From Anaerolineae bacterium (GTDB lineage Bacteria; Chloroflexota; Anaerolineae; Anaerolineales; DRMV01), in the NCBI GenBank assembly GCA_011176535.1, contig DUEP01000117.1, positions 1-34,653 on the forward strand: 34,653 nt of DNA, in the 5' to 3' direction. Shown in pieces: positions 8,549 to 34,126 of this stretch. A model generated the notes under the pieces. That model was given only the letters and a program-made list of their open reading frames with translations, did no database searches and was not told where the DNA came from. A program made the position numbers and the translations under genes. Within the stretch, counting starts at the first letter, position 1, and the number at the start of each line of letters is the position of its first letter.

Positions 8549-8583
8549 CCCGGCTGGACGCCACAGGTCCAGCCGGGCTTTTT
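8549..8583 (+). terminator. Strong intrinsic terminator after the HtrA-like gene
   Basis: CCCGGCTGGAC (8549-8559) pairs perfectly over 11 bp with GTCCAGCCGGG (8567-8577), followed by CTTTTT. The tract lies immediately upstream of the extended -10 box of the next gene. Confidence 0.9.
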
Positions 8584-8596
8584 GATGGCAGCCTCT

Positions 8597-8605
8597 TGGT
8601 ATAAT
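8597..8605 (+). promoter_or_regulatory. Extended -10 promoter of a leaderless gene
   Basis: TGGTATAAT (8597-8605) is a perfect extended -10. The A of the start codon is 7 bases after its last T, which is where transcription should start, so the mRNA would have no leader. No good -35 is seen; a T-rich stretch from the upstream terminator lies in that area. Confidence 0.65.
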
Positions 8606-8611
8606 GGCGGC

Positions 8612-9631
8612 ATGCGCAAATTACTTTTTCCCCTGCTCCTGCTCCTCGGGGTTCTATTCATCATCAGCCGCCTCGCCGAACTGGAAACCATAGGCCGAAC
8701 GCTACGCCAGGCCAACCCGCGTTACTTAGTGCTCGCCTTCGGGGTGCAGATGCTGTGGTTCCTCAACGCAGGTCTCAATCTCCGCTGGATTTATCGCGCC
8801 CTGGGGCTGAAGGAATCCCTGCTCCGGCTGACGCTGCTCAGCGTGGCCGCCAGTTTCACCAATGTAGTCGCCCCAGCCGGCGGCATGACCGGCATGGCCG
8901 TGTATGTCTCCGAAGCCCAGCGCCAGCGCTATTCCCCGGTCCGCGCCACCGTGGCCGGGATGCTTTACTTCTGGAGCGAATATGTGGGCTTCCTGGCCGT
9001 CCTGGCTCTGGGGATCATTGTGCTGATTCGGCGCAACAACCTCCACACCCCGGAAATCGTGGCCTCGGCGCTCATGGGCTTGCTCGTGTTCGGACTGGGG
9101 ACCCTGCTTTACCTGGGCATGCACTCCGCCCGGCAACTAGGCGCGGTGCTGGCCTTTGCCGCCCGCGCCATCAACGCCGTGCTACGCCCTTTCCTTCACC
9201 GCCCCTACCTCTCCGAGGAACGCGCCCATCACTTCGCCCATGATGCCCAGGCCGGTTTGCGCACCCTGGGCCAGAAGCCCAAAATCATGCTGGTTCCCCT
9301 GCTTTTGGGGCTGACCAGCAAACTGCTGTTGCTGCTTGTCCTCTTGCTCTCGTTCAGGGCCTATCAGGTCCCCTACTCCCCCGGGACCATCGTGGCTGGA
9401 TTCTCCATCGCTTACCTTTTCCTCATCATCTCGCCCACCCCATCGGGGATCGGCGTGGTCGAAGGCCTGCTCACCGTGGGGCTGAATTCGATGTATGTTC
9501 CTCTGGGGCAGGCCGCCATCGTGGCCCTGACTTATCGCGCTGTGACCTTTTGGGTGCCGTTGCTGCTCGGCCCGGCCGCCTTTCGCCTGTTGGACCACCT
9601 CCCCGGCCCCGGCCCCACCCTCTCCCGATGA
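8612..9631 (+). CDS. Flippase-like membrane protein (LPG synthase TM / UPF0104 family)
   Basis: This 339-residue polytopic membrane protein has about eight hydrophobic segments. The family's conserved segments are visible: SFTNVVAPAGGMTG near residues 85-98 and ISPTPSGIGVVEG near 272-284. The domain is the membrane part of lysylphosphatidylglycerol synthase (MprF flippase domain) and also occurs alone, where its cargo is usually unknown, probably a lipid. There is no soluble synthase domain here. I chose ATG 8612 because the promoter's -10 box lies directly before it, so longer versions would start upstream of the transcript. The start appears leaderless. The gene stands alone between a terminator and a regulatory gap. 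Confidence 0.82.
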   Translation: MRKLLFPLLLLLGVLFIISRLAELETIGRTLRQANPRYLVLAFGVQMLWFLNAGLNLRWIYRALGLKESLLRLTLLSVAASFTNVVAPAGGMTGMAVYVSEAQRQRYSPVRATVAGMLYFWSEYVGFLAVLALGIIVLIRRNNLHTPEIVASALMGLLVFGLGTLLYLGMHSARQLGAVLAFAARAINAVLRPFLHRPYLSEERAHHFAHDAQAGLRTLGQKPKIMLVPLLLGLTSKLLLLLVLLLSFRAYQVPYSPGTIVAGFSIAYLFLIISPTPSGIGVVEGLLTVGLNSMYVPLGQAAIVALTYRAVTFWVPLLLGPAAFRLLDHLPGPGPTLSR

Positions 9632-9669
9632 CTCCCCAAGAACTTGGCCCCAACACGCCCCCTTTACCT

Positions 9670-9766
9670 CACTTCGTGGCAAGATAACGCGGCCACGGAG
9701 GCGTTTGGGCGCTCCCAGCCCAGCGCACCCCATCGCACTTCGTGGTAAGATAAAAAGGTCACGGAG
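9670..9766 (+). repeat. Pair of 31-nt direct repeats upstream of the kimA-like gene
   Basis: Copy 1 (9670-9700) and copy 2 (9736-9766) match at 26 of 31 positions, with a period of 66 nt. The blocks CACTTCGTGG, AAGATAA and CACGGAG are identical. Each copy ends in a small hairpin around the loop ACGGA: a 3-bp stem in copy 1 (GCC/GGC), and 5 bp in copy 2 (AGGTC/GACCT). One stem pair differs by a compensating change. Copy 2 also contains TGGTAAGAT, an extended -10-like element. The pair could be tandem operators, a promoter with repeats, or an RNA element. Confidence 0.7.
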
Positions 9767-9776
9767 ACCTGCTCTG

Positions 9777-9801
9777 CCCCCTGCCCGTCAGGGGGTTTGT
9801 T
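9777..9801 (+). terminator. Intrinsic terminator in the leader of the kimA-like gene
   Basis: CCCCCTG (9777-9783) pairs with CAGGGGG (9789-9795) around a CCCGT loop, followed by TTTGTT. It ends 24 bp before the start codon of the permease gene. It could stop read-through from upstream. Since the direct repeats precede it, it could instead be the expression platform of an attenuator. Confidence 0.65.
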
Positions 9802-9825
9802 ATGCCTTGAATCCAGGAGGCGTTT

Positions 9826-11697
9826 ATGGCAAACCGTTCCTTCAGCCTGCGGCGTCTGCTTCTCGGCGACCCGCTGGCCACCTGGCAGGCTAAACATGAG
9901 CGGCTCACCAACGCCAAGGCGCTGGCCATATTCTCGTCCGACGCCCTTTCCTCAGTCGCCTATGCCACCGAAGAAATTCTCTTCGTCCTCCTCCCCGCGG
10001 GGATGGCCGGGCTGACCCTCTCCATCCCCATTTCCTTAGCCATCGCCATCCTGCTCTGGATCGTCGGCACTTCCTACTACCAGACCATCCACGCCTACCC
10101 CCAAGGGGGCGGCTCATACATCGTCACCAAGGACAACTTGGGCACTCTGCCCGGCCTGGTGGCCGCCGGCGCCTTGTTGACCGATTATGTGCTCACTGTG
10201 GCCGTGTCCATCGCCGCGGGCGTCAGCGCCCTCTACTCCTTCTCCCCCCCGCTCTATCCTTACCGCGTGTACCTGGGCGTGGCGGGGATCGCCCTGATCA
10301 CCATCATCAACCTGCGCGGCGTCCGGGAATCGGGCACCATCTTCTCCATGCCCACCTACATGTTCATCGGCAGCATCCTGGCCTTGCTGGCCGTGGGCTT
10401 CTACCGCTACTTCACCGGCCAACTGCACCCCATCACGGTCACCGGCGCGGAAGTCCCGATCACCCCTACCCAGGCCATCACCCTCTTCTTTGTGTTGCGC
10501 GGCTTTTCGGCCGGGTGTACGGCCCTCACCGGCGTGGAAGCCATCAGCGACGGCATCCCCGCCTTCAAGCCCCCCGAGGCGAAAAACGCCGGCCAGACGT
10601 TGCTCATCATGATCTCCCTGCTCACCACCATGTTCCTGGGGATCACCTTCCTGGCCCATCAGGTCGGCGCGGTGCCCACACACGAAGAGACCGTCCTTTC
10701 CCAAATCGCCCGCGCCGTCTTCGGCGAAGGGATCGGGCATGCCATCATCCAGGGAGCCACAGCGCTCATCCTCTTCCTGGCGGCCAACACGGCGTTCTCC
10801 GACTTTCCCCGGCTGAGTTACTTCCTGGCGCGCGACCGCTTCATGCCGCGCCAGTTCGCCAACTTAGGCGACCGTCTGGTGTATTCCAACGGCATCCTCA
10901 CCCTGGGCACCCTGGCCTCGCTGCTGCTCATCCTCTTCCACGGCGACACCCATCATTTGCTGCCCCTCTATGCCGTGGGTGTGTTCATCGCCTTTACCCT
11001 CTCACAGAGCAGCATGGTTGTGCGCTGGTGGCGCTTGCGCACACCGGGCTGGCAACACTCCCTGTTCTTCAACGCCATCGGCGCTCTATCCACCTTCATC
11101 GTTCTGGGTGTGATCCTGATCACCCGCTTTACCCGCGGGGCCTGGATCGTGGCCTTGCTGATCCCCATTCTGGTCCTCATCTTCCTGCGCATCCACCGCC
11201 ATTACGAATTCGTGGCGGCTCACCTCTCGCTGGAGCGCTTCGGATCACCACCGCACATTCGCCGCCACCGCGTCATCGTGCCCATCGGAGGGGTTCACCG
11301 CGGCGTGATGCATGCCCTGCATTACGCCCGCACCCTCTCGCCGGATGTCACCGCCGTCCTGGTGGATGTAGACCCCACGGAAACCCAAAAAGTGCTTCAG
11401 AAATGGGAGAAATGGGGAGATGGCATCCGCCTGAAGGTGTTGCCTTCCCCCTATCGGTCCATCATCGGCCCGTTCCTGGAGTATCTGGACACCCTGGAGG
11501 CCGAATCCCTGCCCCAGGACATGATCACCGTGGTACTCCCGCAATTCGTGCCCGCCCGCTGGTGGGAAAACCTGCTCCACAACCAGACCGCCTTGCTGTT
11601 GCGCATGGCGCTGATTTTCCGCCGGGGCACTGTGGTGACCGATGTCCCTTACCACCTGGGCCTCGTGAGTCAAAACAACGGAGGGAATCAGCCATGA
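9826..11697 (+). CDS. KimA-like APC-superfamily permease, probable K+ transporter
   Basis: This 623-residue protein has about 12 transmembrane segments in residues 40-455 and a soluble C-terminal domain (about 465-623) with a Rossmann-like, USP-type flavour (HRVIVPIGGVHRGVMHALHYA). The N-terminal block SSDALSSVAYATEEIL and the YPQGGGSYIV segment are typical of KimA (formerly YdaO), a high-affinity K+/H+ symporter in Bacillus, and of related APC permeases. Two TrkA/RCK genes follow, the first overlapping by 4 bp, which supports potassium as the substrate. The ATG follows AGGAGG. The leader holds direct repeats and a terminator. An amino acid permease is a less likely alternative. Confidence 0.82.
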   Translation: MANRSFSLRRLLLGDPLATWQAKHERLTNAKALAIFSSDALSSVAYATEEILFVLLPAGMAGLTLSIPISLAIAILLWIVGTSYYQTIHAYPQGGGSYIVTKDNLGTLPGLVAAGALLTDYVLTVAVSIAAGVSALYSFSPPLYPYRVYLGVAGIALITIINLRGVRESGTIFSMPTYMFIGSILALLAVGFYRYFTGQLHPITVTGAEVPITPTQAITLFFVLRGFSAGCTALTGVEAISDGIPAFKPPEAKNAGQTLLIMISLLTTMFLGITFLAHQVGAVPTHEETVLSQIARAVFGEGIGHAIIQGATALILFLAANTAFSDFPRLSYFLARDRFMPRQFANLGDRLVYSNGILTLGTLASLLLILFHGDTHHLLPLYAVGVFIAFTLSQSSMVVRWWRLRTPGWQHSLFFNAIGALSTFIVLGVILITRFTRGAWIVALLIPILVLIFLRIHRHYEFVAAHLSLERFGSPPHIRRHRVIVPIGGVHRGVMHALHYARTLSPDVTAVLVDVDPTETQKVLQKWEKWGDGIRLKVLPSPYRSIIGPFLEYLDTLEAESLPQDMITVVLPQFVPARWWENLLHNQTALLLRMALIFRRGTVVTDVPYHLGLVSQNNGGNQP

Positions 11698-12377
11698 AAC
11701 TCATCATTGTGGGATGCGGACGCCTGGGGAGCGCCCTGGCGTTGAGCACGGCCCGCGCAGGTCACGAAGTGACCGTGGTGGACCGCTCGGCGCAGGCCTT
11801 CGACCGGCTAGGCGCCGATTTCCACGGTCGCACCATCCAGGGCGAAGTGCTCCACCAGGAGGTGCTGCGCCGCGCCGGCATCGAGGAAGCCGACGGCTTG
11901 GCCGTGGTCACCCCCGACGACCATGTCAACCTGGTGGTGGCCCGGATCGCCGTGCTGCGCTATGGCGTACCCAATGTGGTGGTCCGCGTGTACGGTCTGC
12001 GCCACCGCCCCCTCTTCGAGGAACTGGGCGTGCAAACCGTGGCCAGCGCCCTTTGGGGCGCCCAGCGGCTGGAACAACTGCTGACGCACCCCGGCCTCTC
12101 CACCCTGGGCACCTTTGGCCACGGCGAAGTCTCCCTGGTGGAGGTTCGCGTGCCTGCCTCCTGGGAAGGGCAGACCCTGGACGCGCTTTACGCCGAGGAG
12201 GCCATCCGACCGGCGGTGGTGGTACGTGGCGGCCAGGCCCTGCTGCCCACCCAGGCCCATTTCGTGCTCCACGAAGGGGATCTGCTGGTGCTGGCCGTCT
12301 CCCGCCAAGCCATGAAACGCCTGAGCGACTTCTTCCGCCACCCGCAAAACGCCGAAGCATCCGCGAAACCGCAGTAA
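11694..12377 (+). CDS. TrkA/KtrA-family RCK protein (first of two)
   Basis: This 227-residue cytoplasmic protein has an RCK_N Rossmann domain with the nucleotide motif GCGRLGS (residues 7-13) and an acidic residue at the end of strand beta2 (VVDRS, near 30). An RCK_C-like domain follows from about residue 145. RCK proteins bind NAD(H), ATP/ADP or c-di-AMP and gate K+ channels and transporters such as KtrB and TrkH. Here the gene overlaps the permease stop by ATGA, so expression is coupled and the permease is the likely partner. No TrkH or KtrB gene is in the window. Confidence 0.87.
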   Translation: MKLIIVGCGRLGSALALSTARAGHEVTVVDRSAQAFDRLGADFHGRTIQGEVLHQEVLRRAGIEEADGLAVVTPDDHVNLVVARIAVLRYGVPNVVVRVYGLRHRPLFEELGVQTVASALWGAQRLEQLLTHPGLSTLGTFGHGEVSLVEVRVPASWEGQTLDALYAEEAIRPAVVVRGGQALLPTQAHFVLHEGDLLVLAVSRQAMKRLSDFFRHPQNAEASAKPQ

Positions 12378-12387
12378 GGAGGGCGTT

Positions 12388-13062
12388 ATGTTCGTCATTG
12401 TTGCTGGCGGCGGTCGGGTAGGCTCCACCCTGGCCGAGCGCCTGCTGGAAGGCGGCCACAAGGTGCGCCTCATCGAACACCGGCCGGCCGTGTTGGAGCG
12501 CCTGCACCGCGAACTGCCCACCGAGGTGATCGTGGTGGGCCAGCCTACCGACCCGGACCTGCTGGAGCGCATCGGGGTGCGTCAGGCCCAGGCCTTGGCC
12601 ATCGTGCTCTCCGACGACGCGCAGACCCTTTCGCTGGCCTCGCTGGCCCGCTTCCGTTATCAGGTGCCGCGGATCATCGCCCGCGTGAACGACCCGCGCA
12701 ACCGCTGGCTCTTCGAGCAAGATATGGGTGTGGATGTAGCCCTCAACCAGGTGGAGATTTTCACCAGCCTGGTCGCCGAAGAGATTTCCCTGGGCGATAT
12801 GATGACCCTGCTCAAACTCCGGCGGGGCAAGTACATGCTGGTCGAGGAAAAAATCCCCCCGGGCGCGCCGGTCATTGGCCAGCCCATCAAAGACCTCGAC
12901 CTGCCACAGCAGTGCGTCATCGCCGCCATCATCCGCCACGGTGAAATCGTGGTGCCCCGTGGCATGACGGCGCTGGAGGTGGAAGACGAGGTGCTGGCCA
13001 TCACCGACGCCCAGGGCGCCGAGGCCCTGCATCGGCTGTTCACGCCCAAGAGCCAGGCCTGA
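12388..13062 (+). CDS. TrkA/KtrA-family RCK protein (second of two)
   Basis: This 224-residue protein has an RCK_N domain (GGGRVGS at residues 7-13, IEHRP near 30) and an RCK_C domain (about 140-220; KYMLVEEKIPPGAPVIGQPI). It is clearly a paralogue of the preceding protein but not a close duplicate. Paired RCK proteins next to an APC permease resemble the CeoB/CeoC pair of mycobacteria, which may form a hetero-oligomeric gating ring. The ATG follows AAGGAGG, 10 bp after the preceding gene, so the three genes form one operon. No clear terminator follows before the rpmH promoter. Confidence 0.87.
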   Translation: MFVIVAGGGRVGSTLAERLLEGGHKVRLIEHRPAVLERLHRELPTEVIVVGQPTDPDLLERIGVRQAQALAIVLSDDAQTLSLASLARFRYQVPRIIARVNDPRNRWLFEQDMGVDVALNQVEIFTSLVAEEISLGDMMTLLKLRRGKYMLVEEKIPPGAPVIGQPIKDLDLPQQCVIAAIIRHGEIVVPRGMTALEVEDEVLAITDAQGAEALHRLFTPKSQA

Positions 13063-13089: not shown

Positions 13090-13118
13090 TTGACCAATGG
13101 GGCCAAGTGAGGTATAAT
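13090..13118 (+). promoter_or_regulatory. rpmH operon promoter
   Basis: TTGACC (13090-13095) and TATAAT (13113-13118) are spaced by 17 bp, near consensus. The leader of about 100 nt has a GC hairpin (GCGCCCC near 13125-13131 against GGGGCGC near 13142-13148). No DnaA boxes are seen in this gap. Confidence 0.8.
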
Positions 13119-13224
13119 CGGCCCGCGCCCCCAGAGAGGCAGGGGCGCCCTTTAGTGTTGCCCATAAGGGTTCCTCCGCCACGCGCGGGAGACCACCCTT
13201 CATCCTACGCGACGAGGGAGAACG

Positions 13225-13404
13225 ATGCCAAAACGCACTTACCAACCCAAGATCCGCCGCCGGTTACGCCGGCATGGCTTCCGCGCCCGCATGGCTACGC
13301 GTGGCGGGCGGAAAGTGCTCAAGCGCCGCCGCCTGAAGGGCCGCCATCGCCTGACAGTGCGCATGAACAACCATGTGAAACGCATCAACTGGAAATCCCA
13401 CTAA
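13225..13404 (+). CDS. rpmH: 50S ribosomal protein L34
   Basis: The 59-residue product starts [19 protein letters not shown] and contains the [22 protein letters not shown] core of L34, a very basic protein of the large ribosomal subunit. Most bacterial L34 proteins have about 44-50 residues. Here the extra length is a C-terminal tail after the core ([19 protein letters not shown]). A GAGGGAG ribosome site precedes the ATG. It is the first gene of the rpmH-rnpA-yidD cluster, as in most bacteria. Confidence 0.95.
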
Positions 13405-13436
13405 GCCCCCCGCGGGAAGGCGCCTTTGGAGTTTGG

Positions 13437-13811
13437 GTGAACCGTCGCTTTCGTCTCAAGCGAGCCTCTGATTTCCAGCGGGTGCGGCGCGAGGGACGTT
13501 CCTTTGCCCACCCGCTGGTTGTCTTAGTCGTCGCCCCCAACACGGAGGGTAGGGTGCGGGTGGGAGTGGCCGCCGGACGAACCATAGGCAAAGCCGTGGC
13601 CCGCAACCGAGCCAAGCGGCGCCTGCGGGAGGTCATACGGCCTCTCCTCCCCCTCCTCCCCCCAGGGTGGGATTTGCTGCTCATCGCCCGTCATCCGCTC
13701 AACCAGGCCCCCTTTGCCGACCTGCGGCAGGCTGTGTATCTTTTGCTGCGCCGCGCCGGGCTGCTTCCCCCACCTGCTGCGCCTTCCCCGCGTCGAGAAA
13801 ATCTCTCATGA
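13437..13811 (+). CDS. rnpA: Ribonuclease P protein component
   Basis: This 124-residue basic protein binds RNase P RNA and helps it hold the pre-tRNA leader. The family signature [14 protein letters not shown] (RNR motif) is at about residues 59-72, and the N terminus has the usual [13 protein letters not shown] segment. I chose the GTG at 13437 because it gives the normal length and N terminus; a longer frame upstream would overlap rpmH. A weak GGAG lies before it. The gene follows rpmH by 32 bp and overlaps yidD by 4 bp. Confidence 0.93.
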
Positions 13812-34051: not shown

Positions 34052-34126
34052 CGGGGCGTGGCTCAGCCCGGTTAGAGCGCACGGTTCGGGTCCGTGAGGT
34101 CGGCGGTTCAAATCCGCCCGCCCCGA
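34052..34126 (+). tRNA. tRNA-Pro (anticodon CGG)
   Basis: A full cloverleaf can be drawn. The acceptor stem is CGGGGCG (34052-34058) with CGCCCCG (34119-34125) and discriminator A34126. The D stem is GCTC/GAGC. The anticodon stem is CACGG/CCGTG with loop TTCGGGT (anticodon CGG at 34087-34089, reading proline CCG). The T stem is GGCGG/CCGCC with loop TTCAAAT. The 3' CCA is not encoded, so it must be added by the CCA enzyme. Confidence 0.96.

Follow-up and report, generated by a model that had tools for sequence, protein, structure and literature searches.

The 194-nt gap upstream of the kimA-like gene in this Anaerolineae genome is probably an ordinary control region that has been locally duplicated, rather than a new RNA sensor. 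The gap (9632-9825) lies in the window, by which we mean the whole 34,653-nt stretch analysed (contig C117 of a 2.27-Mb genome that is 97% complete), between a gene of the lysylphosphatidylglycerol (LPG) synthase transmembrane family (8582-9631, + strand) and kimA (9826-11697, +), and it contains two 31-nt copies (9670-9700 and 9736-9766, both +) and a terminator-like hairpin. The duplication is real and locally unique. The interpretation that we modestly favour is that the copies are tandem promoter cassettes driving a kimA-trkA-trkA operon, and that the hairpin leader between them and the gene is a fixed or regulated attenuator.

The two copies are identical at 26 of 31 positions (84%) with a start-to-start spacing of 66 nt, exactly as had been claimed from a reading of the sequence alone. 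When the 194-nt gap was shuffled 3000 times with its dinucleotide content preserved, no ungapped 31-nt self-match exceeded 22 positions, a value reached in two shuffles, so the match is beyond chance and the duplication is confirmed. Searching the genome with the full 31-nt pattern, allowing up to three mismatches, gave no further site, and a looser version of the pattern gave 14 matches against 9 for the reversed control. The pattern CGTGGNAAGATAAN{2,6}GNCACGGAG was not found in exact form in either GTDB r220 or IMG/VR, from which the genome's own record may be absent, and a first set of kimA orthologue loci contained only chance-like partial matches to the repeats. In the family's other 17 genomes there was no KimA orthologue at E 1e-100, the sole match being a distant one in genome G003 (E 1e-11). 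A dispersed repeat was thus rejected, as the genome holds just these two copies. A recent and neutral small duplication, or the insertion of a repeat-family member without function, would agree with the searches, which found the pair in no other genome, but identity between the copies falls to background directly outside the 31 nt while the 31-mer itself is still at 84%. This suggests constraint on the 31-mer, and a neutral origin seems to us improbable.

What the copies have in common is a core, TGGYAAGAT, which we read as an extended -10 element. In copy 2 a TGn followed by a TAnnAT-like hexamer is present (TGGTAAGAT at 9743-9751), in agreement with the earlier suggestion of an extended -10-like element there, and we propose this as promoter P2; the counterpart in copy 1 (TGGCAAGAT at 9677-9685) has no T at the first position of the -10 and would be a weaker promoter, P1. 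The block of identity spans about -20 to +9 relative to such a promoter. Neither copy has a -35 box, and a consensus promoter scan of 9400-9950 returned no promoter at all. Elsewhere in the genome the motif does appear at gene starts, in small numbers and partly as judged by eye. TGGTAAGAT occurs nine times, whereas the reversed word used as a control was found just once (forward 0, reverse 1). Four of the nine sites have, as judged by eye, a hexamer resembling a -35 (TTGACG, TTGACA, TTGAAA or TTGTCT) 17-18 nt upstream, and at six an ORF start is listed no more than 250 nt away on that strand, one of these (L267) being doubtful. The more general TGnTAnnAT, counted with crude gene calls in 102 gene-upstream gaps of the window and ten other stretches (197 kb), gave a small total of 10 sense and 3 antisense sites, 5.5 times the overall density. 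These counts and contexts fit best with the alternative, also raised in the sequence-only reading, that the copies are DNA elements in tandem that include an extended -10.

We therefore picture each cassette, on the strength of the motif and its contexts, as an extended -10 plus the sequence flanking it upstream and at the start site, possibly overlain by the binding site of a regulator, with the pair driving the operon from within the gap that follows the LPG-synthase gene. Transcription from P2 would begin at about 9758, inside copy 2. The RNA would then lack the 5' half of that copy, and the repeat would act chiefly as DNA. RNA polymerase would then have to pass the terminator-like hairpin of a short leader, and that hairpin would act as the fixed or regulated attenuator. 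The arrangement resembles tandem extended -10 (TGn) sigma-70 promoters in its TGGTAAGAT core, its position before a gene and the use of the motif before other genes of the genome, but the predicted promoters are without a -35 and the conservation over 31 nt exceeds what a -10 needs.

A separate locus of the same genome (L177, near 9866 on the - strand) carries an inverted repeat, TTAGCACTC..GAGTGCTAA, directly 3' of a GGTAAGAT -10 and followed by GGGAGG and ATG; it is similar to CIRCE, the operator of HrcA. It is like the kimA copies in being an inverted repeat beside a TAAGAT -10, but the sequence differs and the kimA arms are not CIRCE.

The conserved arms could also be explained if the 31-mers were tandem operators only, sites for a dimeric regulator with the promoter elsewhere or overlapping by chance. 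The outer arms, with CTTCGTG and CACGGAG as putative half sites at a distance of 22 bp, are indeed conserved at a spacing of about two DNA turns, and the flanks are not conserved. However, by a rough estimate half-sites matching at 6 of 7 positions are not rare by chance in a 31-mer, the upstream arm may be the promoter's own TRTG-like stretch, and no regulon was found in the genome. A regulon defined by the arm spacing (CTYCGTG-N15-CACGRAG) was tried and rejected: exact matches were found only at both copies and at C1:20391, and although up to two mismatches gave 75 sites against 34 for the reversed control, this excess may be due to composition. Operators alone are thus an unlikely account of the pair.

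A point against the promoter reading is that the arms would suit an RNA hairpin equally well. The pair had been presented as a tandem RNA leader, each copy ending in a hairpin with an ACGGA loop, and both hairpins do exist: GGTC-ACGGA-GACC at 9757-9769 (+), which as a fold would form the predicted 5' end (first 13 nt) of the P2 transcript, and its copy 1 counterpart GGCC-ACGGA-GGC(G) at 9691-9702 (+), which is absent from the lowest-energy folds. One pair changes from C-G to U-A between them, but as covariation this is weak because it is a single event in only two copies. When each copy was folded alone the energy model favoured an alternative, CUUCGUGG...(C/U)CACGGAG, at -13.6 and -6.9 kcal/mol. 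A new tandem RNA element, either a riboswitch or a protein-binding leader transcribed from an upstream promoter and controlling the terminator with both copies folded, would be consistent with the compensating change, with the stability of these copy folds (CUUCGUGG/CCACGGAG; only 0.45% and 3.75% of mononucleotide shuffles were equally stable), with a whole-leader folding z of -2.0 and with a terminator directly downstream of copy 2. Against this, 9400-9670 has no promoter-like site, the copy 2 motif resembles a promoter element elsewhere in the genome, the folds made did not oppose an antiterminator to the terminator, no Rfam family matched, and the pattern used was found in no other genome. 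If copy 2 is the promoter, the RNA would start inside it, and a tandem RNA leader formed by the pair is not supported. An RNA sensor here is without independent support, and we regard this explanation as quite unlikely. Guanidine-II (mini-ykkC) riboswitches are tandem hairpins with ACGR loops, and the window is like them in that a transporter gene is preceded by a pair of small hairpins whose loops resemble ACGG, but its loop is the five-base ACGGA and no Rfam match to guanidine-II was obtained even at E 10.

Returning to the promoter reading, the leader downstream of P2 carries the hairpin at 9776-9796 (+), which has eight pairs, a loop of five and the tail TTGTTATG. It lies about 10 nt past copy 2 and before the gene, where an intrinsic terminator had been claimed, and it combines a GC-rich stem with a U-rich tract, albeit an imperfect one (TTTGTTAT). 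The ribosome-binding site CAGGAGG follows at 9814-9820 (+). As the consensus scan found no promoter between the hairpin and kimA, the gene would be transcribed by read-through of the hairpin. The hairpin was present in every leader fold made and no competing antiterminator fold was found. The leader is like known attenuators with a promoter-proximal intrinsic terminator in having a read-through hairpin between promoter and ribosome site, but differs in having neither an alternative antiterminator fold nor a visible sensor.

A c-di-AMP riboswitch of the ydaO type had been expected before kimA, with the reservation that the repeats did not look like one; the reservation was justified, and the expectation proved reasonable for other phyla but not for the organism's own order. 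The comparison with Rfam models suggested in the sequence-only reading gave no family for 9632-9825 at gathering level, a relaxed search gave only a chance match to mir-149 (E 3.5, other strand), and the ydaO covariance model (RF00379) found nothing in the window. The same riboswitch was found at none of the 20 kimA loci scanned from the order. In a scan of 18 loci it was present before kimA-like genes in L074 and L075, which are records of other phyla, showing that such a riboswitch is detectable by the search used. With strict filters, ydaO was found in 1 of 61 genomes of relatives and not in the organism's own; this sole example is at L212 (G046:C140:117747-117878). The leader therefore shares with the ydaO/yuaA class (RF00379) its position upstream of a kimA-type gene and the presence of a terminator, but has no match to it in sequence or structure. 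A diadenylate cyclase, on the other hand, is encoded in 56 of the 61 genomes, this one included. The c-di-AMP pocket residues of B. subtilis KimA include Arg337, His579, Asn580 and Gln581 (PMC10284832). All four are kept in the KimA of the window, with Thr replacing Ser582 (from an alignment, counted by eye). With pocket residues kept and a cyclase present, control by c-di-AMP at the protein level is plausible, and any such control would more likely act on KimA itself.

The assignment of the gene is firm: the earlier kimA-like label can be replaced by that of a true KimA, as the 623-residue product, a K+/H+ symporter, matches the solved KimA structure (PDB 6s3k) at E 1e-172 over residues 7-611. 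A trkA-like gene (11694-12377, +) overlaps the end of kimA and a second follows at 12388-13062 (+). Further downstream, a gene that we take to be rpmH (ribosomal protein L34; 13225-13404, +) is nested, in a different reading frame, within an open frame (13107-13811, +) that runs into rnpA, the RNase P domain beginning only at residue 112; a similar nested rpmH/rnpA arrangement occurs in Thermus. The window also contains an RNase P RNA gene (RF00010; 3749-4190, +) with TTGACA-16-TAAAAT just upstream, so that genes for both RNase P subunits are present in it, and a tRNA gene at 34052-34126 (+).

Synteny was checked at 135 loci with a kimA match, a set that includes repeat fetches of the window and others, and in which the LPG gene would have escaped notice wherever no more than about 600 nt of upstream sequence was included. 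This gene precedes kimA at six other loci (L006, L010, L015, L049, L050 and L065), and four of the six gaps have the order TTGAC-17-TAnnAT promoter, 10-15 nt, GC-rich hairpin, U-rich tract, then kimA. For reference, the kimA gene of Leptolinea sp. HRD-7 (Anaerolineales) aligned over its whole length with those of L057 and L054, loci from the organism's own order, at 70% of nucleotides. Among 149 kimA leaders with a length of 150 nt or more, a strict scan for a promoter followed by a hairpin picked out 12, against two weak cases in the controls (20 control stretches plus the window). Ten of these 12, with L027 and L083 left out and L009 and L012 added by eye, gave the 12 leaders of model R1. 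At E < 0.01, R1 recognised 13 of 87 kimA orthologues of the order, 12 of which were its own training set; outside it L152 passed (0.0074) and L136 reached 0.018. The leader set omits 4 of 66 loci (L097, L117, L124 and L128) whose matches were fragmented or cut short at their beginning. The window scored 1.9 bits (E 0.24 on 199 nt), which is not significant, and consequently we claim a similarity of layout and not membership. Helix covariation in the 12 leaders was within that of shuffles (a single pair had changes in both partners, and 307 of 500 shuffles were as high). The kimA leaders were not clearly more structured after the promoter than controls (mean z -0.65, 9/59 below -2, against -0.53, 5/35), in a comparison that omits the window's own leader because its promoter is below the cut. 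A structured leader specific to kimA was thus rejected as a rule.

R1 was also applied to 400 genomes from the order, with the 11 best candidates in each genome scored. Among these, matches beyond kimA were found in leaders (L226, L227, L229 and L230) of what is presumably secD, in one (L234) before a frame that by eye starts like ribosomal protein L32, at three regions of a presumed glmS, where the hairpin is upstream of the likely promoter, and at one further, ambiguous place, L228; the names secD, glmS and L32 are putative assignments. In 27 secD upstream regions the order was mostly TATAAT, hairpin and a GGAGG-type ribosome site. Several secD leaders of the order (L226, L229, L230, L236, L237, L239, L255 and others) show TATAAT, a GCCAGCC..GGCTGGC hairpin, a TTTGT-type tail, GGAGG and the start codon. 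In the window's family, including its own genome (L252), the secD hairpin has no U-rich tail, which speaks against termination there. Taken together, the secD leaders exceed the controls in structure (mean z -1.69, 7/23 below -2, against -0.53, 5/35); MAFFT misplaced the hairpins when these leaders were aligned. No Rfam family covered the secD leaders in the 11 loci scanned, and no such leaders were found, at record level, in the literature on leader motifs in Chloroflexi or Anaerolineales. The secD hairpin leaders are a more unusual lead than the repeats of the window. It is conceivable, though doubtful, that kimA and secD (perhaps also rpmF) share an undescribed type of attenuator leader in the Anaerolineales; the kimA leader of the window would then be a divergent example whose promoter has been duplicated. 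Such a leader would consist, again as a long shot, of a strong promoter, about 5-25 nt, a GC-rich hairpin followed by a UUUGU-type tail, and then the ribosome site.

For the order, these results mean that the c-di-AMP riboswitch expected before kimA is replaced by another layout, in which the cyclase and the protein pocket are present and the riboswitch is absent. If the kimA and secD hairpin leaders are one regulated attenuator, they would add a novel regulatory element to a phylum that has received little study.
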